Positions 31,927-56,586 of a DNA stretch of 64,000 nucleotides are shown in pieces (position 1 is the first letter of the stretch; each line of letters starts with the position of its first letter). The DNA lies in the NCBI RefSeq assembly GCF_019649055.1, contig NW_026570283.1, positions 496,001-560,000 on the forward strand, given 5' to 3'. The DNA comes from Paramacrobiotus metropolitanus (Eukaryota > Tardigrada > Eutardigrada > Parachela > Macrobiotidae). The notes beneath the pieces are model-generated. The model did no database searches. It saw only the letters and a list, made by a program, of their open reading frames with translations, and was not told the origin of the DNA. A program made the translations under genes and the position numbers.

Positions 31927-32319
31927 TGTCAGAGACCGCTCACTCGAGGCGGTAGACACCTCTCGTGGCTTTGCTCTGTCGCCCGCCCGCACATGGCTAC
32001 TCCATTCGTGCCGCGCTATTACGCTGCTTACTCAGCGTATACTTTGTCTACGCTGACCAATCAGCGCATTTCTCCGCACTCTTGGGGGTGGAGCCCTGCG
32101 CCTACGGGCGATTCCATGCTTTGCCGCATCAGCTGTTGCATACCCGCAGCACGCGGAATCATTAATCATGATTCCTCACCAGCGCACTGCAGGCACTTTT
32201 TTCCAGCTTTTCCCGCATTGGGTTTTCTGTTGGTTTTTGTGTGTTGTTGATGCTTTATTGTTATCACAATAAAGGCTATATTTGCCCCATTTCTTCCTGC
32301 TTCTGTGCCTGATCTGACA
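31927..32319 (+). repeat. 5' LTR
   Basis: 393 bp, with terminal inverted repeats TGTCAG/CTGACA. It contains a CCAAT box (gaccaatcagcg near 32056), a CGCC-TACG-GGCG hairpin, and AATAAA near 32268, about 50 bases before the end. Confidence 0.95.
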
Positions 32320-32337
32320 TGGTAGCAGCATCGTTCG
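32320..32337 (+). other. Primer binding site
   Basis: TGGTAGCAGCATCGTTCG begins directly after the LTR's CTGACA, as expected for a site pairing with a tRNA 3' CCA end. I cannot assign the tRNA from memory. Confidence 0.7.
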
Positions 32338-33272
32338 GTTTTCCTTCCCGGAATCCTCTGATCTCCCAGTGAAGGCATAATCGGTCGAACTACGCTGATC
32401 GCCTATAAGTAGGCCAGCAAACCCGCGACCATATCTCCTGCATCATACAGGTTTCACTGGAAACCTGCAGCGCGACGGATTACATACGGGTCGGCGCCTA
32501 TAAGTAGGTCCCCCGCAGCTTTGGCTCCCGGCGCAAAAACTGCGTTCGGTACGTCGCTGTTGACCAATTAAGCGCCCTACCGGGTTGCATGATACGGGTC
32601 AGCGCCTAAAAGTAGGCCTCCCGCAGCTTTGGCTCCCGGCGCAAAAACTGCGCTCGGTACGGTCCTGTTACACCATTACGCCCTATCGGGTGCGCTGCGG
32701 CCCTTACGGTAGAAAAGGGTGAAGGGGAACGACGGAGCAGCAGTTTGGAGCGATCAAACCGCCGGTAAGACCTGCTGTGACGCGTAGGACTTTCGTAAAA
32801 CTTTCGTAAAAATTCGAGGTTTTCGGAAGAACTCGGTATAAAACCCTTCATAACTTTTCAACCGTTTATCCGATTTGCTCCAAAATAGCTTTTTCGGATT
32901 TCTTGAGAAATTCTGTACTAAAAAAGTAAAACAGAACTCTCGAGAGCGAAAAAGTCGCGTGACGTCAGCGTGGTGATTTTCCATAAAAATTTGACCAATC
33001 AGAACACGTGGGAAACTTCCCCGTGTTATAACTCTCGTAGTGACTCATATTGTTTTTTAAATTTTGCTCACGGCACGCTACTCGTGACGTAGAGCTTTTT
33101 GCAAGACCATTTCGTACGTGACGTCACACTGGTCAGTAACGTAACATAGGGCCATAGGAAGCTAACGCTAAACCTGAGCTCTAGCGTACCTGACCAGCAC
33201 CAACCAGCGACAGCCAAACCAACCGTTCCGGTCCGGACCAAGACCAAAGAAATTTTTCTAAGTCCCAATACC
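32338..33272 (+). other. 5' leader with two 108-bp tandem repeats
   Basis: No long frame. Units at 32485-32592 and 32593-32700 share gcgcctaWaagtaggYc, a ccgcagctttggctcccggc block and a cggtac block. Each ends in a CCC-TAYC-GGG hairpin. A partial third unit lies at about 32390-32410. The GCCTA-WAAG-TAGGC stem-loop recurs three times. These are possible packaging or dimerisation structures (inference). Confidence 0.65.
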
Positions 33273-36037
33273 ATGGGCCAAATCGAAAGCGCTTTGGCCA
33301 AGGTGATGCCATACACCAGCCATGAGCAACTCCAGCGACAGAGCGGTTCTGAACCAGACGAGCCAAACTCGGCCGGCTCAACGAGTTCGGTCGAGGCCAA
33401 AGCCAGGCGGGACAAACAAATCCTGCCGGCTGACCTGGAAACCAGTGATGAAAGTCTGGACGCCACCCGGGACGACACATTCCAGGAGGCATCCGACGAA
33501 CTGTCCGAGGCCAACCAGCCTCTGACAGCCAACCTGGCGCCGATAGGACGGCCCAGGCCAACAGTGTCCTCGGGACTTGGCGCACCAACCGGCCATACCT
33601 GGTCCGGGCCAGTCCAACCTGCGGCGCCAACGGCAGCCACAGGTGAGACAAGACACGCACTGATGGACCAGAGCCAAACAACTTGGCCCGATCCAACCTT
33701 GATGTCCAGGATCTGACAGCACGTCCAGCCCTATCGGGCTCGGACCAGATCCAACCTGAGGCGCCAACGGCGGCCAAAGGTGGACGCAAGGCCAAGGGCC
33801 AAGCCAAAAAGGCTGGTCCAAAGGCACATGACCAGGGCCAACAGCCCGTGAGTCAGTCGCCCATCATGTTTGAAGTTGATGGCTCAACCCCTGCAACGCC
33901 ATCGCCAACCAATGACGTCATCGGCGCGTCTGGCCCGTCCAAACCGGACGAAGAGCCAATTGTGGACCTGGCACAACTTAGCAGGGCCACAGCCAGGATG
34001 GACCTAAACCGGCCTTCCTGGGACACAACCCGCGCCAGCGTCACCCCGCCAAAGCTGAACCAGGCAACCCGGCCTGAGGAGCTCGACGAAATCGACCAAC
34101 TCAGGACCACAGTACGGGACCTGACCAAACAGCTGGCGGATATTGCAGAAGCAACCCTGCTATCCGAACGTTGGATGCAGGACGAGATCTGCAGGCACAA
34201 AAACTTTGCGGTCCAATCGGACGCAGAGGCCAAACGCGTCTCGGCCATACTGGCCCAGACCCAACTTGAGCTAACCCAGCTCAAGTTGTCACCATGTCCC
34301 AATGCTGAGCGAGACCAGCTCAACAGGACAATCCACAGCCTGGAAACGGCTGTGGCGGGCCTTGAAGCCCTGCTCACCTCTACGAGGACTGAGCTGGCCA
34401 AAGCCAAGGATGACTTGGCTGCGGCCCGGACCACCATTGACGACACCGACTCTGAGGCGGACCGCCTACAGAGAGAAAACGAGCGTCTTACCGACGACTT
34501 GGCCAACCTGCAGGACGAAATCAATCGCCTGCGCAACGGCTATAACCTCCTTTATGAGAGCCACCAGAATCTCATGAAGACTATCCAACAAGGAGGACTG
34601 ATGAGCCAAACGGTTCAGCAGAAGGAGACACAGAACGTGCAACTCCAGCAACAGATCGTTGCCCTCCAGAGCCAGCTCAACACCGAAGCAACCATTCGGG
34701 CACAACTTGAGCAGAACAGCACCATTGGACATCAAAACTTTGTCCAATTGGAGCAGGCCTTCGCTCAAGCCAAACAGGTGATCCAGGGCCAACATGACCG
34801 GATCATCACATTGGAGGCCAATAACGCCGGCCTGGTCAAAGATTACCAGGCGGCCACCCAACGCATAACCGAAATGAACGAGGAACTGGAAAGGCTAAGC
34901 ACGGAAAACGCCTGCTTAGATGCGGAGAAATCACACCTCGTAGACATCAACTCCGAGTTGTCCGCTGAACCACCGTCCTACCATACCTTTCCGGACTCGG
35001 ACACACAACGTCGACAAGAAAAAGTCGACGAGGCTCTGCGGCAGGGCCAACGCTTCTACCGAGAGCCAGTGTATCAACAGCAGCATTACCATGTGAACAT
35101 GGCTGTGGAAGGACCACTGGTTGGAGATCCCCCAAAGGGGCCAACCATACCTACGCCTCCCAGCCCGGTGGACCGCGGAACATCAACGGCGACAGTAACA
35201 CTGCCGCCACCACCAGTCCCGGTCACCACAACTGCCACTATTGGTCCAACGACAATAGTGACGCCCGCAACGCAGACTCATCCGTCTACGTCAAGCGGGC
35301 TAGGCTTTGACCCGAGCCAGGCAACACCCAGCCACAGTTATTTCGGATCAAAGCCATCGTACCCGTCCTTGTACCCGTCAATATTCCCGAACATGGACTT
35401 CAGTTTTAGCCCACAACCGGCCACAAGCCAGGCTCACACCAGCGGCATGGATCCAAACCGGACCAGCCAGTCGAGCCTTATGTTCGGGCCATCGGCCACA
35501 CAAGGACAGATGGGAGGCCAAAGTGGTACACCAACGGTGCAACCACCACTAGTAGGCCAACTAAGCCTATCTGGCCCTCCTATCTCGGCGGCAGCCCCAA
35601 CGGGCCAAGCTCAGCCACAGATGGGCCAAACCACGCCCACGGGCCAAAACGTGCCCCAACCATCAGGCATACCGCCAACAGCGGCCATGCCACCAGGACC
35701 AGCATGCCCAACCAGGCCAGGGCCAAAATGCGCCCATGTTGGTCCAGCTCCCGAATGGAGCATACGGATGGATGGCGTCCAACGGAGCCATCCAGATCGT
35801 ACCGGGCCAACCAATGTGGGCCCAACCTCAACAGGTGCCGCTGATACCACAGCAGCTAACACCTGCCCCATCACCACCGGTCAGTCCAGCTCTCTCAACC
35901 AGAGAGCAAATCAAAGAAATGGCCCAAGAGATGGGAAAAGCCAACGCGAGAGCTCAAGTCCGCACCGAGTTGCCAAAATTCGACGGCAACAAAACAATGG
36001 TGAAAGGATGGCTTGCACAGGTCCGACGGATCTGTAA
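33273..36037 (+). CDS. gag: Gag, N-terminal part: myristoyl-like start, giant coiled coil, Pro/Gln-rich region
   Basis: The start MGQIESALAK has glycine at position 2, like N-myristoylated retroviral Gag proteins. The frame changes once near 33670-33716 and continues to 36037. Next comes a coiled coil of about 300 residues (34080-34980 region; repeated QLE/RLQ heptads such as LQRENERLTDDLANLQDEIN). A long Pro/Thr/Gln/Gly-rich segment rich in GQ and QP follows. A coiled coil this long is not usual in Ty3/gypsy Gag. It continues, after another frame change near 35720, into the capsid region. Confidence 0.85.
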
Positions 36038-37328
36038 GCAGTCGTCCGATCTGAACAAACCAGATCCGGACTTTATGAGCCGCATTTACATGGCCCTATC
36101 GGACCCTGTAAAGGAATGGTACACTGGCCAAGCCAATCGCGAGGACGAGGACGGCTGGCCAGTAGAAGAGTGGCTCCAAAAGTTTGCCACTCGATATGGC
36201 GACGATAATCAGCAGGCCACTGCCATGGGAGAAATCACACATCGGTACTACCAGCACCTGACCGAAACCCCTGAGCAGTACTATGACGCCATGCTGACTC
36301 TCCAGACGCGCGCTGGCTTGGACGACACAATGACCCTCCACTTCCTGAGGGAGAACGTCAAAGAGCCAGAACTGCGCCGCGCTCTGGACATCCGGATACC
36401 GAAGTCACCGGCAGAATTCCGGGACTACGTCCGGCAATACACAATGGGAAAGCCGGAGTACGAAGGGAAGGCGGGCCGCGGATACCCAACCATCCGAACG
36501 GCCATACAAACGCCACAAGCCCAAGTCGTACCGCAACAACCGGCACTTTATCCCCCGCAGGCTACACAAGCCCAAATAGAGGCAACATACGCCGCCATCG
36601 CGGCCTTGAACTTAGCCTCCCCACAACGTGGGTCTACACCGCCCAACGGCGGTAGTGGCGGCTATGGCCAGGCCCGGAACCAGGGCAACTATAGCTACGG
36701 CCAGGGCAATAGCGGCGGAGGACCAAAGGGCAAGTTCTCCAAGGGCCAAAACGCCAGCTTTAGTGGAAACCAAAGCGGCAACAGCCCTGGAGGACAAAAC
36801 CGAAGCCCAGGAGGCCAGAGCGGCCAACGCCAGACTCTGAGCCCCGAAGAGGCCCGCAGACAAGAGGACATGTATATCGACAGAGTCGAGCGCATGTTCG
36901 AACGATGGGCCAAAGATGGTATTATCACCTGCAACCACTGCCTATGGGGAAACCACCCAACCGAGGGCTGTGGCTACGCAAACAGGCCATATGGCGAAAA
37001 TCCAAACCGGAAATGGTATTTGGATTGGCGAAATCGCTATCAGAAAGGCTACCCTACCGGGTCAGCCAATCCTAACCGCCTCGGCTTAGTGCCACCCAAA
37101 CAACCCAGACCACCACGTGGTAGTGGGGGGACCGGCAGCCGAAGGCAATCCACCGGCTCAGGAAGTGGGTCAGGTGGCGGCAACCGGCAGAACGGTCCAA
37201 AACAGGGATACCAGACGCCAGCCAACGAAAGGGCAGCGCTACCACCCATACCGGACCAGCTGGTGAAGCCAAATGGCAACGGCGGCGGCGGCTCTAGCCG
37301 GGTCAGCCCAACCGCGGGAAACGCCTAA
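35736..37328 (+). CDS. gag: Gag capsid and nucleocapsid
   Basis: The retrotransposon Gag capsid fold is recognisable by LPKFDGNKTMVKGWLAQVRR, then DPVKEWYTG and EEWLQKFATRYG. The C-terminal part is Gly/Ser/Gln/Asn-rich (RGG-like, RNA binding) and holds one CCHC zinc knuckle, CNHCLWGNHPTEGC (C-x2-C-x4-H-x4-C). It ends with TAA at 37326-37328, which abuts a perfect 8-bp stem. It overlaps the upstream gag frame by 300 bases in another frame. The joint is a single frame change, not a separate gene. Confidence 0.9.
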   Translation: MLVQLPNGAYGWMASNGAIQIVPGQPMWAQPQQVPLIPQQLTPAPSPPVSPALSTREQIKEMAQEMGKANARAQVRTELPKFDGNKTMVKGWLAQVRRICKQSSDLNKPDPDFMSRIYMALSDPVKEWYTGQANREDEDGWPVEEWLQKFATRYGDDNQQATAMGEITHRYYQHLTETPEQYYDAMLTLQTRAGLDDTMTLHFLRENVKEPELRRALDIRIPKSPAEFRDYVRQYTMGKPEYEGKAGRGYPTIRTAIQTPQAQVVPQQPALYPPQATQAQIEATYAAIAALNLASPQRGSTPPNGGSGGYGQARNQGNYSYGQGNSGGGPKGKFSKGQNASFSGNQSGNSPGGQNRSPGGQSGQRQTLSPEEARRQEDMYIDRVERMFERWAKDGIITCNHCLWGNHPTEGCGYANRPYGENPNRKWYLDWRNRYQKGYPTGSANPNRLGLVPPKQPRPPRGSGGTGSRRQSTGSGSGSGGGNRQNGPKQGYQTPANERAALPPIPDQLVKPNGNGGGGSSRVSPTAGNA

Positions 37329-37359
37329 GGTCGGGGAGTATCGGCAACTCACCCGACCT
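37328..37359 (+). promoter_or_regulatory. Hairpin at the gag stop codon
   Basis: AGGTCGGG (37328-37335) pairs perfectly with CCCGACCT (37352-37359) over a 16-base loop, starting on the last base of the gag stop codon. The pol frame begins 93 bases after gag ends, so pol is not reached by simple frameshifting. The structure may serve re-initiation or splicing (inference). Confidence 0.5.
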
Positions 37360-37420
37360 AAGACCGGAACCGAAACCGCCGGACATAACCATTACTAATC
37401 CGTACTTAACTAATCCCTAC

Positions 37421-38449
37421 ATGGATCCCAAATTAACCCCTATGGCTCAACAGCCCACCAGTGGATCCAGGCTCAGCGCCAAACCAGCGCTTGAGCCACC
37501 TGGCTCTAGAAATGATGCCAGGCCGACAGTCGTATTGCAAGCGACCAAGTCGATCTTCGGAGCCTCAACTAACCCTAAGGCCAACCGATCCTCAAAACTC
37601 GGAGCCTCAACCTCTAAGGCCAACCGAACACGTGGCAAAGCGAGACGTCGCACCACGAACATGACGTACCCACAATCGGCGTCAGATACATCCTCCGACA
37701 GTGCACCGGACGGATGCTCCGTACAAGATACGGACAGCGAGGTCGGATCCCTAAAAGATTGGATAGCCGAACCTCTTGAGGCGTCAAGTCCCCGTACCTG
37801 CTGGCCCCAGATCGGTGGACAACCCCTCGGCACCACACCAACGGTGCGAACCATAAACAGCTCACGGACCTTCCTTAACACCAAAAGTATGTTTTCCACC
37901 CTACGGGTTGCGGAAACATCACCACAGGAAGAGTCTGTCCAACAGGAGCCTTTATCACCCCAGTACGCTCCTGACGATCCAGGACCAGTGTCGCTAATCC
38001 CCATTGTACCGGTGATGCGGGAAGTGACAGTTGGCCTTGACGAAAACCGCAAACCGAAGACTGTCAGAGCATGGACGCACAAAGTCCAAATTGGACCAGT
38101 CCACACGCTCGCTATGCTGGACACTGGAGCGGAGACATCCCTCATCAGCCAGCAATTCTGCACCGCCAATGGCATCAAAACAGAGCCATTAGGACGGAAC
38201 ACCAAAATCCTTGGTGTTGGCGGACAAACCGCCTTTGTGGTCTCCCACTGCTGCACCGTACCGGTGACACTGCAGGGATACAAGAGCCACCACACGTTCT
38301 TCGTCCAACCGACGTTAACGGACGTGCACGTACTACTTGGATGTGACTATCTCCACTCCAAGTTCACCTTCATTCTTAAGCCAAACGAAGAAATCGTTTG
38401 GGACGCGGTAGAAGTCTATCCCGATACCAGAGGCACCGGGACCCGATGA
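37421..38449 (+). CDS. pol: Pol start: aspartic protease
   Basis: ATG at 37421. A Ser/Thr-rich leader of about 220 residues is followed by a retropepsin-like domain with catalytic LDTGAETSLIS and the C-terminal VLLGCDYL motif. The frame is lost near 38413, just before a 24-base block (tatcccgataccagaggcac...) that recurs at about 38625. The protein goes on in another frame at 38454. Confidence 0.88.
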   Translation: MDPKLTPMAQQPTSGSRLSAKPALEPPGSRNDARPTVVLQATKSIFGASTNPKANRSSKLGASTSKANRTRGKARRRTTNMTYPQSASDTSSDSAPDGCSVQDTDSEVGSLKDWIAEPLEASSPRTCWPQIGGQPLGTTPTVRTINSSRTFLNTKSMFSTLRVAETSPQEESVQQEPLSPQYAPDDPGPVSLIPIVPVMREVTVGLDENRKPKTVRAWTHKVQIGPVHTLAMLDTGAETSLISQQFCTANGIKTEPLGRNTKILGVGGQTAFVVSHCCTVPVTLQGYKSHHTFFVQPTLTDVHVLLGCDYLHSKFTFILKPNEEIVWDAVEVYPDTRGTGTR

Positions 38450-38453
38450 TGAA

Positions 38454-39876
38454 GTGAGAGTTAATCGGCTTGATCACCCGAAAGGTTCTCCTTCTACCTG
38501 CTGGGAATGCCTGGACACCATTGAAAGCCTCATATGGGAGCTGCGCGTCCATAACGCAATCGAGCGTTATATGACCCAATTCCGTGCAGGCATACTCAAG
38601 CCAAATCACGGGATAGTAAAGACTATCCCGATACCAGAGGCACCGGGCCAACGGCCGGTGCCTGACAGAGAAATTAAGGAGAACCTGGTCCAGCGCTATA
38701 AAACTTGGTTTACAGGAGTAAGAAATTTCCTGGAATACCGCGTTAACCAACTCCTTGCTCTAGAAGAGAGCTGGCTTGAAGAAAAAGGCGAACCACTAAC
38801 GTGGCCGCAAATTGCCGAACAATACGGACCATTCGCCCAAGAATTGGACGATTTGGTTCAAGAAGGAGCATTATGGGAGGACGAACGTCTAGCCCTAGTG
38901 TGGGAATACAGAGAGTACCACATGGAAATGCCGAAAGCCCTTCAAAAGATGTGCACGGATCTCTTCGATGACATCATAAAACTTCGAAGACAAGTGGCCC
39001 AACACCCTGGCTTAACCGTCAGCATATGGCCAAAGTATGACCTAAGCCTGACTAACGTCAGGATTATACCGGAACCATTGCCGGAAGCTGCACCGCATAT
39101 AGCGACAAAAGTGCGCTTCAATGATGGCCCACACCCAGAACAGGGAGGCCATCGAAGGGACACCAGCCAGAACGAGCAGGACCCTTCATCAGAGGAAGTC
39201 CAATTGACTTGTCCTCTATGTGGAGACGGCGTTGAAGCAGTAATACGGGCCATACAAACCCGTTCGACTCAACGTTGGGCAAAAGGCCGACCAGCCTCGC
39301 CACTCCCTAACGGGAGCCGTCCAACCACTTTGGCGGAACCGGACGCACCTGAAAAAACAGGAAATCGCAACCGGAGCGCCAGAGATCCAGGAAGTGGATC
39401 TCGTGACCAAACCGGCACCAACAGTGGCCGGCGGCGTGCCAACCTCTAACGAGGATAAAGGCGAGCCAAAACAAGTACAGGACGATAAACCCGAGTCTAC
39501 CGACTCGGACGTCCAAAGCTCAAGCGACTCACCGGACACGGACTCCGATAACCAATCATCGGAGGAGTCGAGTGATGACGAAGAGGACACAGAAATTCTT
39601 CAACTCCGAGCCGAAGCACCGGTAATCCGCAAATTGCGGACCGAACGTCCAACCGACGTTTTAAAGGAGGAGAAAGAAGTCGTTTTCGTTCATCAGCGGT
39701 ACACCTTACCAGCTTACTCAACCTGCTGGATTAAGGTCCGGTCCTATCGGACTATGGACCCGGGACGGCCAATCCACTTTAAATCGCTGAGACGACCACA
39801 CCGCTTGGTCATACCGATCGAAGCAGGAGGTCCAAACTCGAAACAGCGAACACGCGTGGATTCAGGTCCAAAATAA
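38454..39876 (+). CDS. pol: Pol linker between protease and RT, unknown domain
   Basis: Two frames (38454-39449, then 39394-39876) encode about 480 residues. They hold a helical region (TIESLIWELRVHNAIERYM, NFLEYRVNQLLALEESWLEE), a CPLC zinc-ribbon-like half site, a Ser/Asp/Glu-rich acidic stretch (SSEESSDDEEDTE), and a beta-rich segment (YTLPAYSTCWIKVRSY) of the kind that precedes RT in Ty3/gypsy pol. Such a long insertion here is unusual. The acidic stretch carries a perfect 7-bp hairpin at 39491-39508. Confidence 0.7.
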
Positions 39877-39922
39877 GTCCCGACGCGACCAAATCCTCCG
39901 CAAAGGTGCAAAAGTTGGCCAT

Positions 39923-41220
39923 ATGTACTATAGCGACATATATGAGCCAGACATCAAGGAGGACGGCGTAGATTGGTCAATTCCCAACGCCGACGCCTTA
40001 CCATGGCCAAAAGCGGCGGGGAACAATCCAAATCGGTACCGCACCATTAACGACCATGCTATGGTCCGGGCAACTGTAAAGTGGAACTCCCACCGGAGTC
40101 CATTACCCCGGTCCAAGTCAGCATTGATTATCCTGTCGATCCGAGACAGAAACTTATGTACCTCGGAAGCCAAGACACCAAACGGAGTCTGGCCATGCTC
40201 GACGGACCAGTCCAGCATAATGGCAACAGTTTCACCATATTGGTGTCAAACTACTCCAAAGAGCCCCATATACTCCGGAAAGGAGTTAACATGGGCCAAG
40301 TGGAGCCATACGAGGAAATCTCGGATGAAGATTATGCCAAGATCAATTCCCTCCAAACCGGAGAGGAAGATCCTGAAGTGGAACGCGAAATCCGCGCTCA
40401 CATCGCTAATGCACACTTCGGCGATCACCTGACCGAAGAGCAGACCGCTCTACTCCGTCAGGACTTATGGGAACTCCGGGCCATATTCCCGACGTCCAAA
40501 AAGCCTTACGGCGACGTTAAAGGAGTGACCCACGTCATAGAAGTTGGCGACGCTGCACCAATTAAAATGAACCCAACCCGAACGAGTTGGAAGGGACGAG
40601 AGTTCATCAATAAGCACGTCCAAGAAATGTTGGACCAAGGCGTGATTGAACCGTCCATGGCAGCGTGGAGTTTCCCAGTGGTCCTCGCCTCGAAGAAAAA
40701 CGGCGACGGGACCATGGGCACCCGGTTCTGCATAAATTACATAAAGCTGAACTCGGTGACCAAGAAGAATAATTATCCATTGCCCAATCCAGACGAACTT
40801 CTGGATCAATGCGCAGGCAACGCCTATTACGGCAAGGTAGATTGTCAGTCCGGATTCTGGCAAATCCCTATGGACCCAGCGTCCATGGACTACACTACCT
40901 TCGTGACCCCAGAAGGGATGTTCCGGTTCAAACGAATGCCGTTTGGCGTCTGCAACGGGCCAGCCACATTCCAAATGACAATGGACAAGATTATGGCGCC
41001 GGCACGCAAACAAGGCGGCGTCTTCGCATATATCGACGATGTGATATTCTTCGGCAAGACATTCGAGGAATTCAGGAAGGCGTTCAGAAACACGCTCCTC
41101 TGCCTCAGAGACGCCGGATTCACAATAAAACCGTCGAAATGCGAATTTGGAATGGAAAACTCCAATTCCTTGGACACATCCTCAGCAAGGACGGTGTCCA
41201 TACCGATCCCGAGAAGGTAG
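39923..41220 (+). CDS. pol: Pol: reverse transcriptase
   Basis: After a short pre-RT part in one frame (39923-about 40080), the RT runs to 41220. It shows HVQEMLDQGVIEPS, PVVLASKKNGDGT, YPLPNPDELLDQCAGN, KVDCQSGFWQIPMD (first catalytic Asp), MPFGVCNGPATFQ and the catalytic box AYIDDVIFF. This is the Ty3/gypsy signature. FCINYIKLN replaces the usual VDYRKLN, with Asn for Asp. The frame changes again at an A run near 41155-41160. Confidence 0.93.
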
Positions 41221-44504: not shown

Positions 44505-47500
44505 ATGTCAGTCGGCCCCAGTTCACGGGCCGACACACCGCTACCGCGGTCACAGCCTCTGCCACCTCGAGCCATACCGCCACAACTTTGGCCGCCAGGG
44601 ACATTCTCTGACGTGACTGGACTCCTGGTGAATGCAGCAATAGCCGGCAGCCAGCCAAGCTCTACGTCGGGCCAAACGGTCCGACGCTATCCTCACGGCC
44701 GTACCGGCTCACATCAGCCAATTCGGTATGGTGGCCTACCGACCACTTCGGCGAGTCAGCCAGTTTTCACCACTGCGGCAGTCGGGCCAACGGTCACGAC
44801 TACACCGGTCCATACTGGACCGCGGCCACAGTACACTCCGCCTCCATACCATAACCCTTACTATGGATATCCACCATACCCTGCGCCTGGACCTTCAAAC
44901 CAGCCGCAGCCGGATCCGAATCAGTGGCGATACCCACCACCGTGGATGTATCCGCCTACACCTTATGGATATCCACCGCCTTATGGCGGATATGGAGCAT
45001 ACGGCCAACCGCCGTATAGCCCACCTTCAGCGGCACAACCTGACCCAACGGGCCAGGCGCCGTCTGACTCATCCATTGAGCCTCCACGAGCGGGACCGGA
45101 AGCCTACCAAACTCCAGCGCCGCCGGAAACCCAGCCAAGCACATCACAGCTCAACGAGCCAAGTGATTACCCATTACGGGTATTTGTGAATGGACGGCTC
45201 ACCATATATAACCGGCCAGAAGAGGTTCCACCGGAATTAGCGGCCCAACTTGGCCTAACCGAACCGGCACCGGCAGCACAACCACCACTGAACCCAGTGT
45301 GTGTAAGAAGGCGTGACCAGACTGTCCCACCGACAGAATCGGTGTCTTCGCCAGAGCCGGAAGCCGAAGGGGACGTCCAATGGGACCCAACTACCCCACC
45401 ATTGCGGATTGAATCCCCCACTGAACCTCTGGCCGACGGCCGGACTCCACTCTACCAACTTCAGGACAATCTGAAGGAAGTAGAGAACGCCATCCAAGAA
45501 TTGGAGGCCATGATTCGAGAATTGGACAGCCGCAGCTCTGACTACCGTGAGAAGGCTCAGCGCATCATTCTCGATCAAGACGAGTTCCGGCGTCTCGCTC
45601 ATGAACTTAGCGAGGAAATAGCGACCCGCCAAGCTCAAAACGAGATATTTCCTTTGCATGACCAAACTGGTCAGGCACTGTTGGCGGCATCTCGCAGGCT
45701 GAGAGACCAGCTGGAACAGTATCGGACGGAAAGACAGCTGAGGACCGAAGGATCCGCAGCACCAACACGTCCGCCACCAGCACCATCAGCACCACCCCCA
45801 CCATTGAACCCAACAGTCGTAGTTACCGCTACGACAGGGGAATCTTTCGCGCCACCAGTGGCCCAGCCTACGTCTACCGACGAGGCAATGCTGACGGCCA
45901 CTGGATTGGAACCGCGAGAACCAGCATCTTCTCCGTATGACCTAAGGGCTTACCCAGACATACCTCCCTTGGAGCGTGAACTCCACGCCGCGGAACGCCT
46001 CGAAGAGGAAATCCGTAAGGTTATCAGTAGCCTGAAGGGAGTGGATATTGCCACTTTACGGAGAAAAGTCGCGTTGGACTTGGAATTCCAACGCGTCCTG
46101 GAATACATAACCAGGATTCGACGGGCCATGCTTCGGTTTATGGATAAGCCGTTAATACGGCCAACGACGCACCATCATTGCGCGATTTCCGTAACCGGCA
46201 ATATCAGCTTGGCCTGATCGACGAAGCACTTAGGCGCGTGTTACCCAAACCCCGACCGGGGCAGCCAACACGCGTCGGACAAACCGGACTTCTCATACCG
46301 ACACGGTCCTCAACACGCCAACCGGCGGAAGAATTGAGGATGCGGTTCTTGAGAATTATGCGGATCTCGGCTGAACGATTTGCAGCCGGACCAGCACTAA
46401 GTCGACCAGCCAGCGCGTCGGACACAGAAACCGACAGCGACATTGAGTGGTTCGACATGCCAGACCCAATCCCTGTACCAGGACTTACAGCTCCGCCTGA
46501 TCACCTGGTCGCGCCAGAACGACAGGTCCACCCGAGGCCAACTTCACTGGCGCCACCACCAGCCATAGCGGAACGCCTGGAACTAATCATGCGGGGCAAC
46601 GTTACGCGAGGCAGAACGGCCTACGCGGACGACTTCCCGCTACTAAACCAGCCGGATGACGACAATCGACCGGCCCCTCGGACTTTACGTCAGCAATGGG
46701 ATGATGAACAGGCAGCAGCGAACCAACGGTTACGCGAAGCTGACACTGGGCCCATGCAAATGACGGTTGTCCAAGCACTGAGCATTCGGCACCTTATCAG
46801 CGATGCTGGAGATGTCGAACGCCGCATAACCAACCGGATCCAAGAACTCAGCCCGTTTGACCCAGAAGCGGTCAGGCTGACGGAACAGCAACAGAGCTTG
46901 GCCCAACGGGTGGCTCTGCTTAAAGGTCTTACTTCTAACCATACGATGCCTACCGGTCCATCGTTAACGGTTATGGACCACACCACAAAATGGATCCGAG
47001 AATTTATCGAAGATTACTGGAAAGTCCCACGTCCGCCAACGGCGGCACGCTCGAGTGACTTCGATCCAGTAAACGAATGGCGACCATCACCGGTGTCTGC
47101 GCCAACACCTTTGGCCCTGACATATGTACCGGCCGCCTCAACATCAGTTGGACAACCAACTCCAGCTGAGTTGGCCCAGGCCCTAACGGTGCCTGGTCCA
47201 ACACCTGACCAACCCATGGACACTGCTAGCACCGCTATAGCGGGTAACAGTACAGAAGTCCAACAGCAGGACGTCGAAATGGACGTAGCCCTGCAAGACA
47301 AAACTCTGGAACTCTCGCCAGAGAAGTCGGCCGAAACGGAGCCAACACCAGTCCAACCGGCCGGTGAACCTACAAGTCCAATGGCTGTTGATGCGCCAAC
47401 GGCGTCATCACAGCCTACACCGAAGCCAATTGAAGGCGACACATCAAGTGGCACCCTCGTTGTCCGGCCAACGCCTAGGAAATCGACAGGAGGACGGCCA

Positions 47501-50500
47501 GAACCGGCCACTCCTGCCACAACAAGTGGCCCACAGTCGCCTAGATTTAAGAAGAAGAAGAGGACTCCCCCGGAAGCGGAAGAGCCTCCTTCACAGCGGT
47601 CACTCCCACCTTGGCGAGGGCCAAGGGAGAAAACTTGGAGTCGAACCGCCCAACAAGGCCCACTCTACCAGAGCGGAGTGGCCCGCCAACGGACACAGAT
47701 GTTCCTGGCCCTACCAGGCCAGGCAGGTCCATACTTAAACCAAAGAAGGCGGAACCACCGACTTTAGTACTTCGCGGTCTACCGACCAAGAAGAAGTCGC
47801 CGCCAAAGAACTTTCCTGGCAAGGGACACGTGCTCTCCCCACCGGAAGCACCAAAGATTCCGTCAGGAACGACACAGCCATTGCGGGACGAACCTCCAAC
47901 GAGGCATCGCATCCGATTGACTCAAACGGAGTCATGGGATGACCCGCATAACCGGCTTGTAAGCGAGATCATAGAACTTGATCTACGCTTAAATCTGACT
48001 GAGGAAGATATGCGCCAGCGACTACGCGCCGGCGATCCTACACTAACGGACCGAGAGATTGACCGCATCAACCGAGGTTGTCAACAGATGGTCCAAGGAC
48101 GTACAATCCTCATCAGAAAACTGATGGCCATGCGAAGTAAAAGCCAGGCCCTTCGCCAACGCAAGTTGCCTAGCGAAATCATCGAGCATGCCATCTACAT
48201 CCGTGGCCCTCACATTAACCCAAGGGCATGGACAGTTGAACCCCGCCCACGACCAGGCCAGCCAGTGGAAGACGAACTTCCACCGGAAGAAGCAGAAAGT
48301 GAGGACGAACGTCCTCAACTGCCAGCGGCCTTCTGGGGCGTCTCCTCCAGCGAGGAGTCGGAGAACGAATCGGACTTGGACGAAAATGTCCAAAGGGCGC
48401 TATATGAGACCAGTCAGGTCCGGCCACCTTCAACGAAGGAATCGCCACGCCGAAGCCGATCTCCATCAAAACGGACTTCTCCTGGACGCGCCACATCAAC
48501 TCCGGCGCGAATGCCCAGCATGCCGGCCATCGAACCGGCGCCTGCCAGGTTCACACCGAGCCGGCCAGGCAAGTCCCCGACCAAAGAGAGGATGGACACC
48601 ACACCTCCTCCAGAGCCAACCATGACCATTACTGTGGAACGAATCGCAGCACCTACGGTGTCTGCAGATTCAACACTTGAACCAGTAACGGTCACGGTTA
48701 GAAACTCCTGCACCAGTGGTCGCAGAATCGGCCAGAATGACGGTGCGGATAACTCCGGCTGTCTCGGCCCAACAAGTGGAAGCCGACGCGGCCTTGATGC
48801 CCATGAGTGCTCTCACTCCTATCGAGCAGAGACACTTACTGATCCATGCTGACCATAATGAGCGACGGCAATATCCGTTCCTGCTCACAAAGAGACAGGA
48901 GGCCAAGGAGCAGAATCGTATGGAAGAATACGACATGATAACCGAAATGCTCCGATCCTTGGTCCTACGGATGATAGATGATTACCGGCGCCGTCGCAAC
49001 CAGAAAGCCTTTCCCCCACCGGAGGAAGACTTTAGAATGGCTGAAACCCTGTCGTCAAATGCGCCACCAACTGTGGTACCGCCAAAGACGCAGGCACAAC
49101 CACCAGCGGCTTCAGAGCCAATGGACACTTCTCCGTCTGGACCTGTGGCCACAGCACCACAGCCAGAACCAGCCCAACCGGAGGAGCCACCGAAGGCCAC
49201 TTCGTCGGCACAAGAATCGGCAGGCCAAAGTCAGTCCGGAACAGGGCCAACGGCCGCTGCTCCGATAAACTTGACGAACATGCCCGCCAGCATCGACGAT
49301 ATACCTTTTGGCCGCCCAGTCACTGTCCCTGCAACAGGGACAATGGAGAATTTTGCACTCGGCCTGGGTGTAATTCACTCAGCTAACTCCCAACGGAGTA
49401 AGCAGCCGAGGAAAGCCAAAAATCCAGAGAGGGCCAAACCGGCCTCTCGTCCAACTTCTCCACAACCGAGGGCCAAACCGGCCACTCGTCCAAACTCTCC
49501 TCAACCGAGTGGAAGTAAGGCGACCGCATCACGGCCAACATCTAATCCAGAGGCCGAACGGAACCGCCAGAAGAAACAAGCGGCCAAAGACAAGAAAAGT
49601 CAAGAGGCCAAGATCGCCCAGCTCGAAAAACGGCTGTCAGGCGATGAAGACGTCCAAGTCCTATCGGACAGTATGGACGAGTCACAAGAGCCACCACAAT
49701 ATCGTCCATGGCAAGAAGAGGAATTCGAGCCAGTTCCCGAAGGTGAACCGCCTTCGGAGGAAACAATGCTCCCGCGCCGGCGGACGACGAAGCTGAGCTC
49801 CCGGACCCTGGACCGGAGGCCACGCACATTGAGATCCCAACGGGTCCATATGTGCGCCAATGGGTGGCAGCGGCCAGGATCATGAGACGTACAACAGGAA
49901 GAGACATGTACCAATGTCTCGTCCGAGTTCTCCGAGCCAGAATGGCACATGGAGAAGAATTCAGAGGGCTACCGCCAGCGGACCGTGTACTAACGGCACC
50001 CTTCATGCGGCGTGTAGTAACTCTCATCCTGGACATGGGACTTCTGGTCCGCACGCACCGTGACTGGACCAGCATGATGGAGCTTCACGTGCCTCATCGG
50101 CCAGCAGGGCTTTCCTGCAGCCGGGATTACGCCTTTCACCAGATATGCAGGACCATCGCTTACCTGCACAACCCAAGAGGCTCCAACTTGGTCGACATAG
50201 TCAGGACCATTAACGCTCTCTACTACAAAGGAGAGGCGGACCAGGAGAAACTGGAAAAGATCATACTTGACGAGTTGTTAGCGTTGGTCAAGGATGGAAC
50301 TTTGAAACGACTAACGCCTACCGGGCAGAGCCGATCCGCTTCACTATTCCTGGTTCATCCCGCAGAAGACCCAACGGTCTCTGTATGTGTCACACGACGT
50401 GGGCACAAAATGGGATCCGGACAGAAAGAAAGCGGCTGGACCGCCGAAAGACAAGTTGACCGGCAGAGCCAAGGAGGCATACTTGATCTCCCAAGTGGCC

Positions 50501-51928
50501 AAACTGCCAGGCCCAAAGAAACTGCCGGTAGAAAAGCCTCCTCGACCATCCGTCACAAGACGAGAGCTGGCTGCACGCCAAGAAGCGGAAGACGAGATGC
50601 GCGCAGCCGGAATTCGGCCTGTGCCCAGGGACACTGTGTCACTGCCTAACGCAGCTGGCCGGTCCAGACCTCCTTCGCCAGCCTTATCGGTCACATCCAC
50701 AAAGAGCCGAAAGGCCACGGCCACAAAGAAAAGAGGGAAAAAAGATCCCTCACCGCAGCCAAGCGACTCGGACTCTGAGGACTCACAACCAGAGGACTCA
50801 GAGGATGACGAACAAGAAGAGCCGGACCAGGACCAAACCATGGAGTCCCAAAAGTCCGACTCTGACGACGATGATGACCAAAGCCCTGGTAAACTTACCA
50901 TGGACCTCCCACCGGACCATGACATGGAAATACCACCCGGTGATGAGAACCAGCCACCTAGCGGTGATCAGGATATGGAGGACCAGGGTGGCGCAGAAAG
51001 CGCCAACCAGGAACAAGGCAGCGCAGAGAGCGCTAGCCAAGAAAGTCCAGCCAGCGTGGACAACGCTGAGCCAAGTGGAAGCGCTGCATCGCCCGAACGG
51101 GAAAGGATGCGCGACTCGACCTCACCAGAATCAGATGATGGCGAGATTCCATGGACTTTACCTGACCCGTGCCCGGCCATACCGCGGATCGATTACGTCT
51201 CGCCACCAACACCAAAGGTGGCCAGGAAATGGCCTGGCGGAGACCCTTCTAAAAAGCCAAGGATCTCCAATTCTGACAAGCGATGGGCATACATTAAGGC
51301 GGCCCTAAAGGCGTTGTCCCAAACGGGTACAACCCTTGCTACAGGGGGCTTGGCCTTCCAACTCATTAAGAAATGGAATGGCCCACCGCTGTCCAAGTCC
51401 AAAGTGATGAAGTACATACAGATGGCCTACCATGAAGGAGCTATACTACGGACTCATCTGCCTAACACGCAGATTTTCTACACATTCCCACCGGAAAAAG
51501 TGGATAAGGCTCCTCAAGGCTACTGGGAATGGCGTAACGCCGTCCTCACAGTGCTGACCACCACTCAGCACCCATTAGGCCTCACACGAGGCGAAATAGC
51601 CAACCAGCTCCTGGGCCGATACGATCTGAACGTCATCTCGCACCATCCACAACTCATCGATGGGATAGCATATGTGCCGAACCAGGGCCGCCCTAGCGGG
51701 TTGTACCCTATCTGCGAGGACGTCAGATACGTCGTAAGGAAGATGTTAAACGAAGGATGGCTCGAGCAAACTGTTGACGAGCCTGAGGCCCAGCAGCGGT
51801 ACAGACAACATAACGTCCCACCGGATCGTTACGGCCCTCGTCCCACTGAATCCGACTCCTTGGCCTCAACCAAGTCCAAGAAGAAGCGGCGTACTACCAT
51901 CAGTGACCTAGGCGTAGAATTCGCATAG
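44505..51928 (+). CDS. ORF3: giant extra protein with winged-helix-like C-terminus, unknown
   Basis: Six overlapping frames (44505-46217, 46178-47767, 47611-48852, 48716-49885, 49852-50649, 50387-51928) read on into each other with one single-base change at each joint. They therefore look like one coding region of about 2,470 residues. Order: Pro/Tyr-rich head with PPPY motifs (TPPPYHNPYYGYPPY) and a coiled coil near 45450-45740; long disordered Pro/Thr/Ser/Glu regions with short helical blocks; a winged-helix-like block about 50080-50360 (LVDIVRTINALYYKGEAD, LALVKDGTLKRL); an acidic stretch (SDSEDSQPEDSEDDEQEE); two further winged-helix-like blocks about 51270-51490 (YIKAALKALSQTG) and 51520-51780 (RNAVLTVLTTTQHPLGLTRG); and a basic KSKKKRR end. 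It occupies the env position but has no signal peptide or membrane anchor. I know no homologue. Confidence 0.75.
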
Positions 51929-52097
51929 GGTCTAGGGGTGATCCCGAAATAATTCACCGGGCAAGAAAAGCCTAGTTAACAAATCACATGTAAAAATCAT
52001 AGGGACGTAAAACCATAGGGCGTAATTATCATAGGGACCCGTCATAGAAAGCGGACTTAACCTCATTCTGCAAGTTTCATTTCTGTTACCACAGAGA
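51929..52097 (+). promoter_or_regulatory. Spacer with strong splice-acceptor-like site before ORF4
   Basis: A tttcatttctgttaccacag tract ends at 52094, three bases before the ATG at 52098. CTTAAC branch-like words lie upstream. Four CATAG(GG) words occur at 52001-52046. The layout suggests a spliced ORF4 mRNA. Confidence 0.6.
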
Positions 52098-54058
52098 ATG
52101 GGACTTACACCGCAGCAGAAATACGAACCGCGATGCTCGGACTGCAGACGCAACAGCGGCGATAGCATGACACATCCTCACCGCCGGGACAATTCCTCAC
52201 GGGAGTTGTTCCCCTGCGCATACCACCTGCGGCCGGGCTTCCGCGATGAGAGCGAACGAGCCTACTACTTCTACCTGGAAGTGGTGAGAGGCAACTTCGA
52301 CGCTTATATTCACATGACCAGCCGCGACGGAAGCCACCTGATTCCCCTACTGAGGGATCATGAACAGATAGAGATCTACGATCTCTACATGCAACGTAGT
52401 GGCGCCCGACAACCTGGCTGGTGCAGTACCGGAACTCCGATTCCTCCACTCAGCCAATCGGCTCGAGAACGGAAGGACGAGCGGGACCGGGAACGTCGAT
52501 CCCGCAACTCTGGATCTGACCAGTCCTCAGGGCGTGGCCCAACGGCCGACCCGAGAAATTACGACCATCAGCGGCCATCATCAGGCTCTCGATCCTACGG
52601 ACACGAGTTGCCCATGCCCATGGAATACAACCAGGGGTTCGAGAAAACGATCCTGGAAAATATCAACAAAGCTATGGTTGACCAGGTGGCCCGACAGCTG
52701 ATGGAAGGTGGATTGCTGGACGCCTTGAAAGGCCAATACCAGCCAGCGCGCACTGAACAGCGCACACCATTGGCACCGCTACCGCGGAACCCAGATGACT
52801 TACGTCATCAGATCCAGAGCCGCAACCAGGACCAAAGTGGCCGCCAAAGCCGTAGCCAGCCCGAGCGCCAACCGCGCACATCACCCGGGAAGCGTAACGA
52901 GACCGAGTCCAGCCTGGTTGTCGCGCAGTCCACCAAGCGACCAGAACGAAGTGTCAGCTCAGTGGCCCACAACATCAGTATCCAAATACCAATGGAGACT
53001 GAGGCCGCACCGCCGTCGTCGGACCTACCGGCCCGACAACATCTGGCAGCACTTCGGACTTTGATCCTTACAAGTACGCTGAGGACCAGGGCATTAACAT
53101 CCGACCACTTCCCCACCGGGTTGTGACGGATTACATCATGGGCGCCATCCCATACCCCAGGGACAAATGGGCCCAAGTTGACGCCATGGTCCAGAATCTG
53201 CAAACCTTCGTCACCCGGTCCGGCCTTGAAATGGAAATGCAGAGGAAAGAGGGCCCCGTGACTTTAACATGAAGGACACATTGAGAACCGCGAGGGTTAC
53301 CCAATGGTCCGTGACAATGCTCTATCGAGCATCACGGACGTGAACTTACTTGGACAGCCCATCACCAGACCGGACTGGAATGACTTGTGCCAACTGCACA
53401 TTAAGGACGACCAACTTGATGTCGTCAAATATCTGGCCCAGTTTGTCCTACCGGACGCGAACGCCAGTTTTATCATTGCAGCTTGCAGAGCGGCCATAGA
53501 AATCCCATGCAAGCCAGCGGATCACAAGGATGACCCAGAGAAACAAACTTATTCTATAACGGCACGATGATACGCATCTTTGCCGCCCAGACTTGGTCAT
53601 CTACACTGCCATTGGGAACTGGAAGTTGCCTACCGGCAAGGGAAAATCGTCCCTCGGCTGTTGACCCAAGTGGCTCTCCTGGGAAACCAGATCCACGAGA
53701 TTGAAGCGGGAGTCAAAATTCAAAGCGCCCTGAACATTTACAGGAGCCGCGCTCTAAAGATTACCGCTATAAACAGCCAACGGACTTCGACGATGGTGCG
53801 GAAGTGTTCGTTAATCGAACAGCAACCAGGAAACTTCCAACGAAGTTTCGAACCCAACGATCCTCAACAGGATCGTCCGCACACGTCCCAACTCAGGCCA
53901 CACAACCTGGCCAAGAAGTCCAGCCGGCCAGCACCTCCAGCCAAAATCAACAAAACCTGACAGAACAGGAATTGGCGGCCATGGAGGAAAGCGTCGTCGA
54001 CCCACTCAACCCTGGGCTGGGCGACGGCGACCAAGCCGGACAAGGAGGGCAGGGATAG
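52098..54058 (+). CDS. ORF4: second extra protein, unknown
   Basis: Starts MGLTPQQKYEPRCSDCRR; a possible zinc site is formed by CSDC and a later CAYH. A globular part follows (ERAYYFYLEVVRGNFDAYIH), then an Arg/Ser/Gln-rich stretch and a helix (FEKTILENINKAMVDQVARQ). After frame changes near 53020, 53250, 53560 and 53650 there are further ordered-looking segments (VVTDYIMGAIPYPRDKWAQV; DVVKYLAQFVLPDANASFII; PDLVIYTAIGNWKLPTG). The last frame (53804-54058) is Gln/Pro-rich. About 650 residues in all. No recognised family and no membrane anchor. Confidence 0.6.
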
Positions 54059-55851
54059 GCCAATGGCCATTCCTGCATGTTGGCCCTAAACAGGGACCAA
54101 CATCAGCTGGACCGGACTTGAACACCATGATGGGTGCAATCCAACGGTTGTTACCCTCGCCCAACAAACGTGGCTTACGGCCATGTACCGTCTACCTCAC
54201 CGGACCTAAATCCCTGGATCTTAACCGGATTCCCCGGATAGGCTCTGGCTTAGCGGCTGGGACCATGAATTTGGCTCGGCCATCCCAGACCATCCGACGG
54301 AGTCCACCGGACCGAACTTGGCACAACGCCTAAGTTCACCGGCATGGAAAGGATCCAGCGCCCAGAAGGCGGCGACGGCCCGCATGGAAGTTGCGACAAG
54401 CCGTGGATCAGCCTGGCCCGCATACAAGTTGCGACAAGCCAAGGCCAAGTCCTGGCCCATAGAAGTTGGACCAGGCCCACTATGCGTCTAACCGACCATA
54501 GATGGCTCACGAGTCTAGTTGCCATACCAAGCAACTGGGACAAGTGAGTTCGGGAGCCACATAGAAGTTGTGGTATACCCATTTTGCATGCCATGTCCAA
54601 CATCCTCACCATGGACCGCCCAGAGGCCCATCTAAAAGATGCACCGCCCCGAGGCCAAACGAGGATGCTTCTAGTCAGCAGACCGACTCCTTTGTGGAAA
54701 ACGCCTACCGGCGCCCACAACTTAATTTTTTTGGAGTTTGGCCCGGCCAACCTGATGTTTTCGTCAGACGCCACTTAATTTTGTTATGGCCACGGTCTCA
54801 GGGAAACCTACCTGACTCATCGGACATGGTAGCCAACTCATGGCCCACGGCCAGTGAGACGGACCAACTTTGGCCCGCCATCACACCCTTGGACCGTCGA
54901 AAAACGACTAAGTCCTTTTGGCCCGCCATACACCTTGGACCGTCGAAAAACGACTAAGTCTTTTGGCCCGCCATCAACTTGGACCGTCGGAAAATCGACT
55001 AAGTCTTTTGGCCCGTCCAATGACGTGGCTCATCAAAAAACGACTAAGTCCACATCGGAGAGCCAAACCTGGTTAACAGTCCCACAACAGCCGGAGCCAG
55101 CCAAATCACAATGGAACCTGTATCCGGCCCAGAGCATGTCAGAGACCGAGTTTGGACCGCCCCAACGGGTTTGGTCCATCACACCACCTGGTCCTGGGAC
55201 TTAGAAAATTTTCCATTGTGGCCCTCCTGGACTTAGAAGATTTTTGGCCTGAGGCGCATGACCAAACCGGCATGCAAGGGCCAAACCCAATAAATGGACC
55301 GCCCTAACGGGACTGGTCCAAAGCACCCATTTTGGCCATTGGGAAGGAATCCGACAGGACTCCCACTCCCGCCATATTAGGACAACCCTAACGGGTCAGG
55401 TCCAACAGAGGCATGTCAGACCAAAGCATGGCCATCCTAACGGAATGGGTCCAAGCATTAATTTGGTTACAGGAGCACCTCTCCTGTCCAGAGGCATCAC
55501 TCTGGCCCATCATGGACCGCCCAACCGGGCTTGGTCCACCATACTTTAACAAGGAAGGGGACAACTTGTCCTTGCGCATGCAACCGTGCCTTCCATACAC
55601 CGCACCGCTGGATTTACTCCACTGGACCCCTGTGGACATCTCTGGGAACCGTCGCCCCGGATTCACAGGACCAGACCAATCCTATCGGATAAAGCGGACC
55701 GTTGACTAGGACCCGTGTGGACAAAAGATTGGCCCTGTGGTAAACCTAGTCGGAATAAGCCATTTCGTCTAGTTTTTTAACCACACCTGGTTTTTCTAGA
55801 CTTTATTAACCAAAGAAATTGATGTTTTTATTTAGCCATTAACCAAAGGAA
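54059..55851 (+). other. Hairpin- and repeat-rich 3' non-coding region
   Basis: No sustained frame. It holds repeated gaagttg-gac words (54385-54500), the GTCG-A5-CGAC tandem repeats (54880-55050), and at least five ggaccgcc-aacggg-tggtcc hairpin units (55156-55540). Near 55841 there is a doubled ttaaccaaagRaattg. A third GACATGGTAGC copy is at 54823-54833. Confidence 0.6.
54880..55050 (+). repeat. Tandem repeat, about 4 units of 40-54 bp, each with a hairpin
   Basis: Units run ttggcccgcca...cttggaccGTCGAAAAACGACtaagtc. The first two are identical in the hairpin, the third has GTCG-GAAAAT-CGAC, and the fourth is degenerate (tcatcaaaaaacga). Confidence 0.8.
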
Positions 55852-55872
55852 TTGGCTTTGGGATCTCTAACT

Positions 55873-56082
55873 ATGATCTTACTTTCTTTAATTCTCACCG
55901 GAATTGTGATCTTTTTATTTCGATGTTTAACCTACGAGCCTTATAAACTTTATTTTTTACTTGTTCGACCAACCAAGCCTTCAAACCCCACTGGAAACCC
56001 CCAGCAACCAGAGTGCACTCCAGATTTCGGCCGTTCGGTGCACTGCACCGCGGGTCTGAGGAAGCGACCCTACCGGGTTTAG
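55873..56082 (+). CDS. Small membrane-peptide frame near the 3' LTR
   Basis: From ATG 55873, about 69 codons read MILLSLILTGIVIFLFRCLT, one strongly hydrophobic helix, then a short Tyr/Pro-rich tail. It could be a free micropeptide, or the anchor and tail left from an envelope-like protein. No upstream ectodomain frame joins it. Doubtful without expression data. Confidence 0.35.
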   Translation: MILLSLILTGIVIFLFRCLTYEPYKLYFLLVRPTKPSNPTGNPQQPECTPDFGRSVHCTAGLRKRPYRV

Positions 56083-56191
56083 AGACAAAGTGGCATCCGG
56101 CCCTACTGGTATCGGATCCTGGCACCCTACCGGGTTGGCCAGGGCAGAGTCGGAAGGTGCTCGCAGGAGCTCCCACTCCCGCCCAGAGGCA

Positions 56192-56586
56192 TGTCAGAGA
56201 CCGCTCACTCGAGGCGGTAGACACCTCTTGTGGTTTTTGCTTCTGTCGCCCGCCCGCACATGGTTACTCCATTCGTGCCGCGCTATTACGCTGCTTACTC
56301 AGCGCACACTTTGTCTACGCTGACCAATCAGCGCATTTCTCTGCACTCTTGGGGGTGGAGCCCTGCGCCTACGGGCGATTCCATGCTTTGCAGCATCAGC
56401 TGTTGCATACCCGCAGCACGCGGAATCATTAATCACGATTCCTTGATAGCGCACTGCAGGCACTTTTTCCACAGCTTTTCCCGCATTGGGTTTTCTGTTG
56501 GTTTTTGTGTTGTTGTTGTTGCTTTATTGTACCAATAAAGGTGATATTTGCCCCATTTTCCATCTGCCTCTGTGTCATATCTGACA
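56192..56586 (+). repeat. 3' LTR
   Basis: 395 bp, same ends and signals as the 5' LTR (AATAAA at 56534-56539). It is preceded by cccagaggca, a weak purine tract for plus-strand priming. Confidence 0.95.

Follow-up and report, generated by a model that had tools for sequence, protein, structure and literature searches.

A clade of giant Ty3/gypsy retrotransposons with two additional protein genes in the tardigrade Paramacrobiotus metropolitanus

Introduction

The length of retroelements has traditionally been considered limited to about 10 kb by transcription, reverse transcriptase (RT) processivity and packaging, according to PMC6431247. A stretch of 64,000 nt from the tardigrade Paramacrobiotus metropolitanus (assembly GCF_019649055.1, contig NW_026570283.1, positions 496,001–560,000 of the forward strand; hereafter the window, whose numbering is used throughout) harbors a Ty3/gypsy long terminal repeat (LTR) retrotransposon of 24.7 kb (31927–56586), in which two large open reading frames (ORFs), ORF3 and ORF4, follow pol. 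The locus raises the question of whether this layout is a property of the element or an accident of one copy, and which role the two additional ORFs might play. The giant layout is found to be the norm among related copies, and both ORFs are shown to be protein genes under purifying selection. We assign a probability of roughly 0.6 to the reading that the copy in the window is a defunct member of a giant Ty3/gypsy clade, whose ORF3 and ORF4 would be accessory proteins produced from spliced mRNAs and, more tentatively, acting in the nucleus.

Two protein genes downstream of pol

The region between the end of pol (44088) and the 3′ LTR measures 12.1 kb (44089–56191) rather than the 11.7 kb given in the original prediction, and contains the following coding features:

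44329 (ATG)–51925, forward strand: ORF3, frameshifted in the window copy
49825–50346, forward strand: ORF3 conserved domains D1 and D2, with sub-threshold winged-helix-like matches
51239–51775, forward strand: ORF3 conserved domains D3 and D4
52098 (ATG)–54055, forward strand: ORF4, broken in the window copy, with an N-terminal CxxC...CxxH/C motif (identified by eye) and a conserved C-terminal domain

ORF3 is open in one frame of 2,540–2,559 amino acids (aa) in five other copies read (L009–L013), and a sixth candidate (C257) would reach 2,532 aa according to the genome search, its N-terminal part matching poorly. Counted from its ATG, ORF4 extends over 654–655 aa in three other copies (L042–L044), and many columns of its C-terminal region are invariant. 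The ratio of nonsynonymous to synonymous substitution rates (dN/dS) is 0.18–0.28 across all 21 pairs of seven ORF3 sequences, two of which are shortened frames (L014 and L015), with dS reaching 0.97, and 0.08–0.22 across all 10 pairs of five ORF4 sequences, two of them partial. These ratios between copies show that ORF3 and ORF4 are protein genes under purifying selection in the window family. A second ORF3 subfamily shares 62–68% identity, depending on the piece compared by tblastn.

The initial description of both regions as coding sequence of unrecognized family is corroborated by database searches. None of ten pieces downstream of pol matched a Pfam family above the cut-off. A comparison with 5.8 billion proteins covered ORF3 residues 1840–2520 and gave no match at E 0.1 among the best 7,994 candidates scored; for ORF4, the best 8,000 candidates scored included one match, a P. 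metropolitanus protein of 270 aa that aligned with 6% of the query. Viral contigs yielded pattern matches only and no relative, and a search of the PDB with ORF4 and D1–D4 profiles reached E 0.14 at best. With the whole of ORF3, the best PDB match (E 0.0043) was a chain named VP1/VP0 aligned to residues 707–801, which was taken for a low-complexity chance match. An envelope protein was also considered for both ORFs and rejected: Pfam returned no env family, and no membrane segment is present in the sequences measured, where no 19-residue mean hydrophobicity exceeds 1.4 (highest means of 1.31 in ORF3 and 1.39 in ORF4, and 1.09–1.27 in three pieces of the related C69 family introduced below). 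No description of this lineage was found in the titles and abstract openings of the literature covered, a scope that excludes many subscription papers and Repbase; in the available part of PMC11071193, Gypsy is merely named and Paramacrobiotus is not mentioned.

Layout of further copies in the genome

The searched genome comprises 169.8 Mb in 533 contigs. Among the best 40 of 237 candidates scored in the LTR search, all at 93–100% identity, LTR pairs spanning 23.1–24.8 kb occur on six other contigs (C231, C9, C41, C57, C51, and C7), and a further pair on C27 spans 17.7 kb. For a comparison of spacing, 50 RT copies were defined as the matches with at least 79% identity among 107, leaving out the second match of a split copy on C29 and sister families at 65–70%, and were set against 62 ORF3 places, drawn from 81 matches, and against the first 58 of 117 matches for ORF4. 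ORF3 lies 3.9–5.7 kb from the RT in 38 of the 50 copies and ORF4 within 14.5 kb in 33; both are found at like spacing in 30, and neither at its expected place in nine. The giant layout is hence the norm. Further copies of the same layout, to which the original prediction had looked for support, do exist, and the opposite outcome, in which all other copies are ordinary elements of 6–9 kb, was not found.

Departures from the standard length occur in both directions. In the sister copies L021 and L025, most of ORF3 is deleted, and each deletion junction is spanned by only one of 40 scored matches, the copy itself (192 and 220 candidates, respectively). The sequences flanking one of these deletions lie 9.3–9.6 kb apart in six copies (two on C5 and one each on C6, C23, C126, and C176), but 4.2 kb (C256), 4.3 kb (C142), 6.8 kb (another copy on C5) and 13.9 kb (C280) apart elsewhere, and therefore shortened as well as enlarged copies exist. 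A search for LTRs in the 3′ region of L025 recovered repeated 3′ sequence.

Related families and the age of the cargo

Identity over RT and RNase H to eight sister copies is 80–82%. In the sister family on C69, ORF3 forms a single frame of 3,302 codons from stop to stop (L024:4969–9990 joined to L045:1–4974), and ORF4 forms one of 730 codons from stop to stop with 30% identity. When the whole of ORF3 was compared by tblastn with the C-terminal part of its C69 counterpart, only residues 1221–1572 were significant (E 2e-28). The C69 domains D1–D4 were first matched by eye, with identities of 36, 39, 39, and 32%, and the matches stand out against shuffled sequences: D1–D2 reach E 4e-27 and 96 bits versus at most 26 bits in 200 shuffles, and D3–D4 reach E 5e-31 and 107 bits versus at most 25 bits in 200 shuffles. 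The start of ORF3 matches five of the eight sister copies (E 6e-8 to 1e-4) within a proline-rich stretch. Several of the sister RT matches (families of L018–L025, L045, L046, and L047) have identical scores, which suggests recent spread.

The outermost family (P0002) retains 70% identity over RT and RNase H, with the best 28 of 2,648 candidates scored. In the one copy read (C162), ORF3 is split into overlapping frames with 985 and 673 codons that match in the D1–D2 region (E 7e-10), ORF4 is divided between two frames (E 5e-16), and no D3–D4 match is reported. The N-terminal CxxC...CxxH/C motif of ORF4, as recognized by eye, is present in both C69 and C162. Across families, ORF3 ranges from about 1,600 to about 3,300 codons, and ORF4 has about 650–730 codons where it occupies one frame. 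ORF3 and ORF4 are thus present in all three branches of the clade examined. Because homologs occur in two further branches of the RT clade, the two genes probably predate the split of these families, which would make the cargo old.

Both top-ranking relatives of the RT are proteins from P. metropolitanus, and gypsy-type Pfam sets are found among the best 120 of 2,902 RT homologs. A quick RT tree of 124 sequences places all 13 P. metropolitanus sequences in one clade with a support of 100 and a long stem. Since this tree contains no named reference clades and the neighboring sequence P0095 is flagged as long-branch, the gypsy lineage is not named here.

Anatomy of the element

The remaining parts of the element, all on the forward strand, are arranged as follows:

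31927–32319, forward strand: 5′ LTR, 393 bp, TGTCAGA...TCTGACA, from sequence reading and genome LTR matches
32320–32328, forward strand: first 9 nt of the primer binding site TGGTAGCAG, directly 3′ of the 5′ LTR
33273–37330, forward strand: gag, frame broken in the window copy, with a coiled coil
36930–36971, forward strand: CCHC knuckle of gag, CX2CX4HX4C
37316–37322, forward strand: GGGAAAC heptamer inside the gag-pol overlap, in three of three copies examined
37298–44088, forward strand: pol (protease, RT, RNase H, integrase), frame broken in the window copy
54869–55050, forward strand: four tandem repeats, each about 46 bp long, within the 3′ untranslated region
56163–56191, forward strand: pre-LTR sequence GCAGGAGCTCCCACTCCCGCCCAGAGGCA at the expected position of the polypurine tract, nearly identical in the C69 family
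56192–56586, forward strand: 3′ LTR, 395 bp, TGTCAGA...TCTGACA

This anatomy is firm. Pfam matches on ten window pieces follow the order aspartyl protease (7.5e-8), RT (1.3e-25), RNase H (1.1e-33) and integrase core (5.2e-15), and the same order is found in one uninterrupted sister pol ORF (L018). Together with the LTR ends and the primer binding site, this bears out the assignment to Ty3/gypsy with which the study began, as well as the combination of animal host, giant size and short LTRs. The two LTRs of the window copy differ at 34 of 391 aligned sites (Kimura two-parameter distance of 0.093), and because of this divergence the copy is not a recent insertion. Target-site duplications of 4 bp are present at two of eight copies checked, namely C51 (CAAG) and C57 (GCCC), and absent at the window copy, C23, C7, C9, C41, and C231; three of four flanking bases agree at C7, which was not scored as a duplication.

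Gag and pol are oversized too, and the protein genes amount to about 6,800 codons in total (gag ~1,380, pol ~2,260, ORF3 ~2,540, and ORF4 ~655). The gag of copy L026 ends at 5644 and comprises about 1,380 codons with two in-frame stops, and open frames around the RT reach 2,199 aa (C51) and 2,262 aa (C23). For pol, dN/dS is 0.15 in one pair. A capsid stretch of retrotransposon type was read by eye in gag, for which Pfam gave no confirmation. By eye, the N-terminus of gag reads MGQ(T/I)(Q/E)SALAKV in three of three copies (MGQTQSALAKV in L026, MGQTES in L027, and MGQIES in the window), a start which we take to fit a myristoylation pattern. The GGGAAAC heptamer, presumably a known −1 slippery site, is likely the frameshift site between gag and pol. 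In the pol of L026 (5617–9990), a stretch of several hundred amino acids between protease and RT appears by eye to include Cys pairs and dUTPase-like segments.

At the ends of the internal region, we assume that TGGTAGCAG resembles an initiator-methionine primer binding site. Before the 3′ LTR, no polypurine tract was seen by eye and a pyrimidine-rich stretch ending in CAGAGGCA is found instead; GCAGGAGCTC....TCCCGCCCAGAGGCA precedes the 3′ LTR in both the window copy and the C69 family (sister L046:1887). A 14-nt sequence joining the LTR end to the primer binding site, TCTGACATGGTAGC (32313–32326), recurs at 44225–44238 and, nearly unchanged, at 54820–54833. These repeats stand at gene borders within the element, and one also follows pol in L009–L014. 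Accretion scars or a regulatory signal were considered as explanations; however, the match may be partly coincidental, since four sister copies retain only AGGTAGCTTA of it in the gap between pol and ORF3. Similarly, the 3′ LTR junction CAGAGGCATGTCAGA (56163–56198) is found in two further versions inside the 3′ untranslated region (55128–55147 and 55406–55422), which look as if copied from the end of the element. An Rfam search gave no match. Elsewhere in the window, host gene exons were recognized by eye, glucosylceramidase-like on the reverse strand (10365–12955) and mitochondrial elongation factor G-like on the forward strand (15374–17302).

Expression signals and proposed mechanism

Candidate splice acceptors precede both additional genes:

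44304–44314, forward strand: splice-acceptor-like site upstream of the ORF3 ATG, with like sites in both subfamilies and four sister copies
52075–52094, forward strand: splice-acceptor-like site TTTCATTTCTGTTACCACAG before the ORF4 ATG, nearly the same in six copies examined

The acceptor-like sequence before ORF3 includes a branch-like TCTAAC in both subfamilies and the four sister copies, and its counterpart at ORF4 is a TTTCATTTCTGTTACC(A/G)CAG-like stretch ahead of the ATG, seen in all six copies examined, with one change in L017. On the donor side, a donor-like GGTAAG together with AAGGTGATG is conserved in three of three copies. Full-length RNA would be translated into Gag and, via −1 frameshifting, into Gag-Pol, while a leader donor joined to the acceptors just upstream of the respective ATGs would give rise to spliced mRNAs for ORF3 and ORF4.

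ORF3 is largely rich in proline, serine and threonine and contains stretches that look helical, motifs of basic residues, an acidic run and the C-terminal blocks D1–D4. Several sub-threshold matches fall within these blocks: D2 to linker histone (0.019 in the window piece; three of five members, best 0.1), D1 to MarR (0.31) and D4 to RPA_C (0.02; two of seven members). Linker histone, MarR and RPA_C are all, as we assume, winged-helix folds, and the matches favor nucleic-acid binding, none of them being significant. Internal repetition of the domains was considered and rejected, as hhalign detects nothing beyond shared overlap residues. It is tentatively proposed that ORF3 is a nuclear nucleic-acid-binding scaffold, long and mostly disordered, with basic nuclear-localization-like motifs, an acidic stretch and small C-terminal domains that might be winged helices. 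It may act in the nucleus on the DNA or RNA of the element, be it in transcription, in integration or in the export of unspliced RNA; ORF4 is its probable zinc-binding partner. Because such acceptors would confront the element with the problem known from Cer1 of Caenorhabditis elegans, both proteins are candidates for a function in unspliced RNA export, by analogy with CERV. A broader proposal, to which we give somewhat less than even odds, is that ORF3 and ORF4 form a clade-wide replication module needed for spread, in which a nuclear DNA/RNA-binding scaffold with small nucleic-acid-binding domains, joined by a zinc-binding partner, varies about twofold in length and has let the elements reach about 25 kb.

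Several points weigh against the reading of nuclear accessory proteins made from spliced mRNAs. Splicing was read from sequence, without a chance control, and the donor-like sequences mentioned above are among nine conserved donor-like sites in the leader and the start of gag, none of which stands out by conservation alone. The winged-helix matches are not significant, and that to MarR disappears with a wider alignment; D1–D4 lack similarity to each other in hhalign, the score between D3 and D4 reflecting shared overlap residues. The dN/dS values for ORF3 and ORF4 were computed on copies picked for long frames. ORF3 is absent from its expected place in 12 of the 50 RT copies, and in three (C24, C287, and one on C27, 930682–948346) ORF4 lies 4.2–5.0 kb from the RT, too close for ORF3, these three being exceptions to the giant layout. 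Finally, the site of action of both proteins could be the particle rather than the nucleus.

Alternative explanations

The last of these points leads to an explanation that we regard as unlikely, in which ORF3 and ORF4 serve the particle or its transmission, as a tegument-like layer or a device for cell-to-cell transfer, with a membrane-targeted Gag. The presumed myristoylation pattern at the start of Gag would suit such a role. Two PPPY motifs lie in the proline-rich N-terminus of L010 ORF3, but PPxY is absent from the four sister ORF3 pieces checked, and the motif was therefore not pressed as a late domain. LTR elements without env that pass between cells have been reported (PMC11952523), whereas the ORFs measured contain no transmembrane-like stretch and the basic motifs of ORF3 point to the nucleus.

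Somewhat less likely still, the two proteins may counteract silencing or act on chromatin, thereby maintaining expression against host small-RNA or chromatin silencing. The acidic and basic tracts of ORF3, its possible chromatin-type domains and the presence of dozens of copies fit this idea, yet no family of any kind was matched, and sequence does not separate it from the nuclear accessory reading. That the ORFs are captured host genes carried as passengers with no role for the element is highly improbable: LTR elements are able to acquire ORFs in the region after pol (PMC6431247), but ORF3 and ORF4 are under purifying selection across copies and occur in three branches of the clade, which speaks against mere passengers, and the protein searches made revealed no cellular relative. 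A chance composite, nested insertion or assembly artifact, which the missing target-site duplications at the window copy and five of seven other checked copies might have suggested, is refuted by the six further LTR pairs of like span, the like spacing in 30 of 50 copies, purifying selection on both ORFs, their intact frames and the 4-bp duplications at two copies.

Comparison with known systems

The clade has a twofold significance. Its 25-kb genomes and two selected extra genes offer an animal lineage for asking how the length limit of retroelements is passed. The two genes also represent orphan protein families, and the compact genome of the tardigrade is a setting in which their function can be tested.

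In plants, Ogre elements are likewise giant Ty3/gypsy elements, which carry one or two additional ORFs without assigned function, but owe their size mostly to LTRs of 1.9–6.5 kb, compared to 0.4 kb in the tardigrade. In plant Retand elements, too, pol is separated from the 3′ LTR by a long region, which contains conserved ORFs and tandem repeats, and DNA binding has been suggested for one Retand domain; their ORFs are, however, antisense and the region measures 2.9–6.6 kb, as opposed to sense-strand genes within 12.1 kb (PMC11963269). Bdelloid rotifers, microscopic invertebrates as well, harbor LTR elements with a non-env ORF3 beside gag and pol. Their ORF3s include esterases, exonucleases and env-like proteins, whereas the tardigrade ORFs have no such Pfam match (PMC5408684).

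With regard to function, a parallel is drawn here with CERV of the C. elegans element Cer1, a nuclear protein translated from a spliced mRNA and needed to export unspliced RNA (PMC10309623). Like CERV, which lacks similarity to known retroviral proteins, ORF3 and ORF4 encode extra proteins, and these would likewise be nuclear products of spliced mRNAs. CERV has part of its peptide sequence in common with Gag; in contrast, ORF3 and ORF4 are separate ORFs.

In terms of size, the elements are comparable to Burro, giant planarian Ty3/gypsy elements that exceed 30 kb with their LTRs (PMC6431247). Both are animal Ty3/gypsy elements longer than 20 kb that contain much coding sequence in addition to gag-pol. 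Burro ORF1, however, encodes 4,873–5,140 aa with motifs of the BIR, BCL2, MATH, and ankyrin types, and an env-like stretch lies between gag and pol, whereas in P. metropolitanus the additional ORFs stand apart, downstream of pol, and match no Pfam family, in an element of 24.7 kb. The likeness to Burro and Ogre expected by the original prediction consequently holds for size and fails for content, in the domains of the former and the long LTRs of the latter. The P. metropolitanus elements form a lineage of giant animal LTR elements that resembles Burro in size and differs from it in domains.

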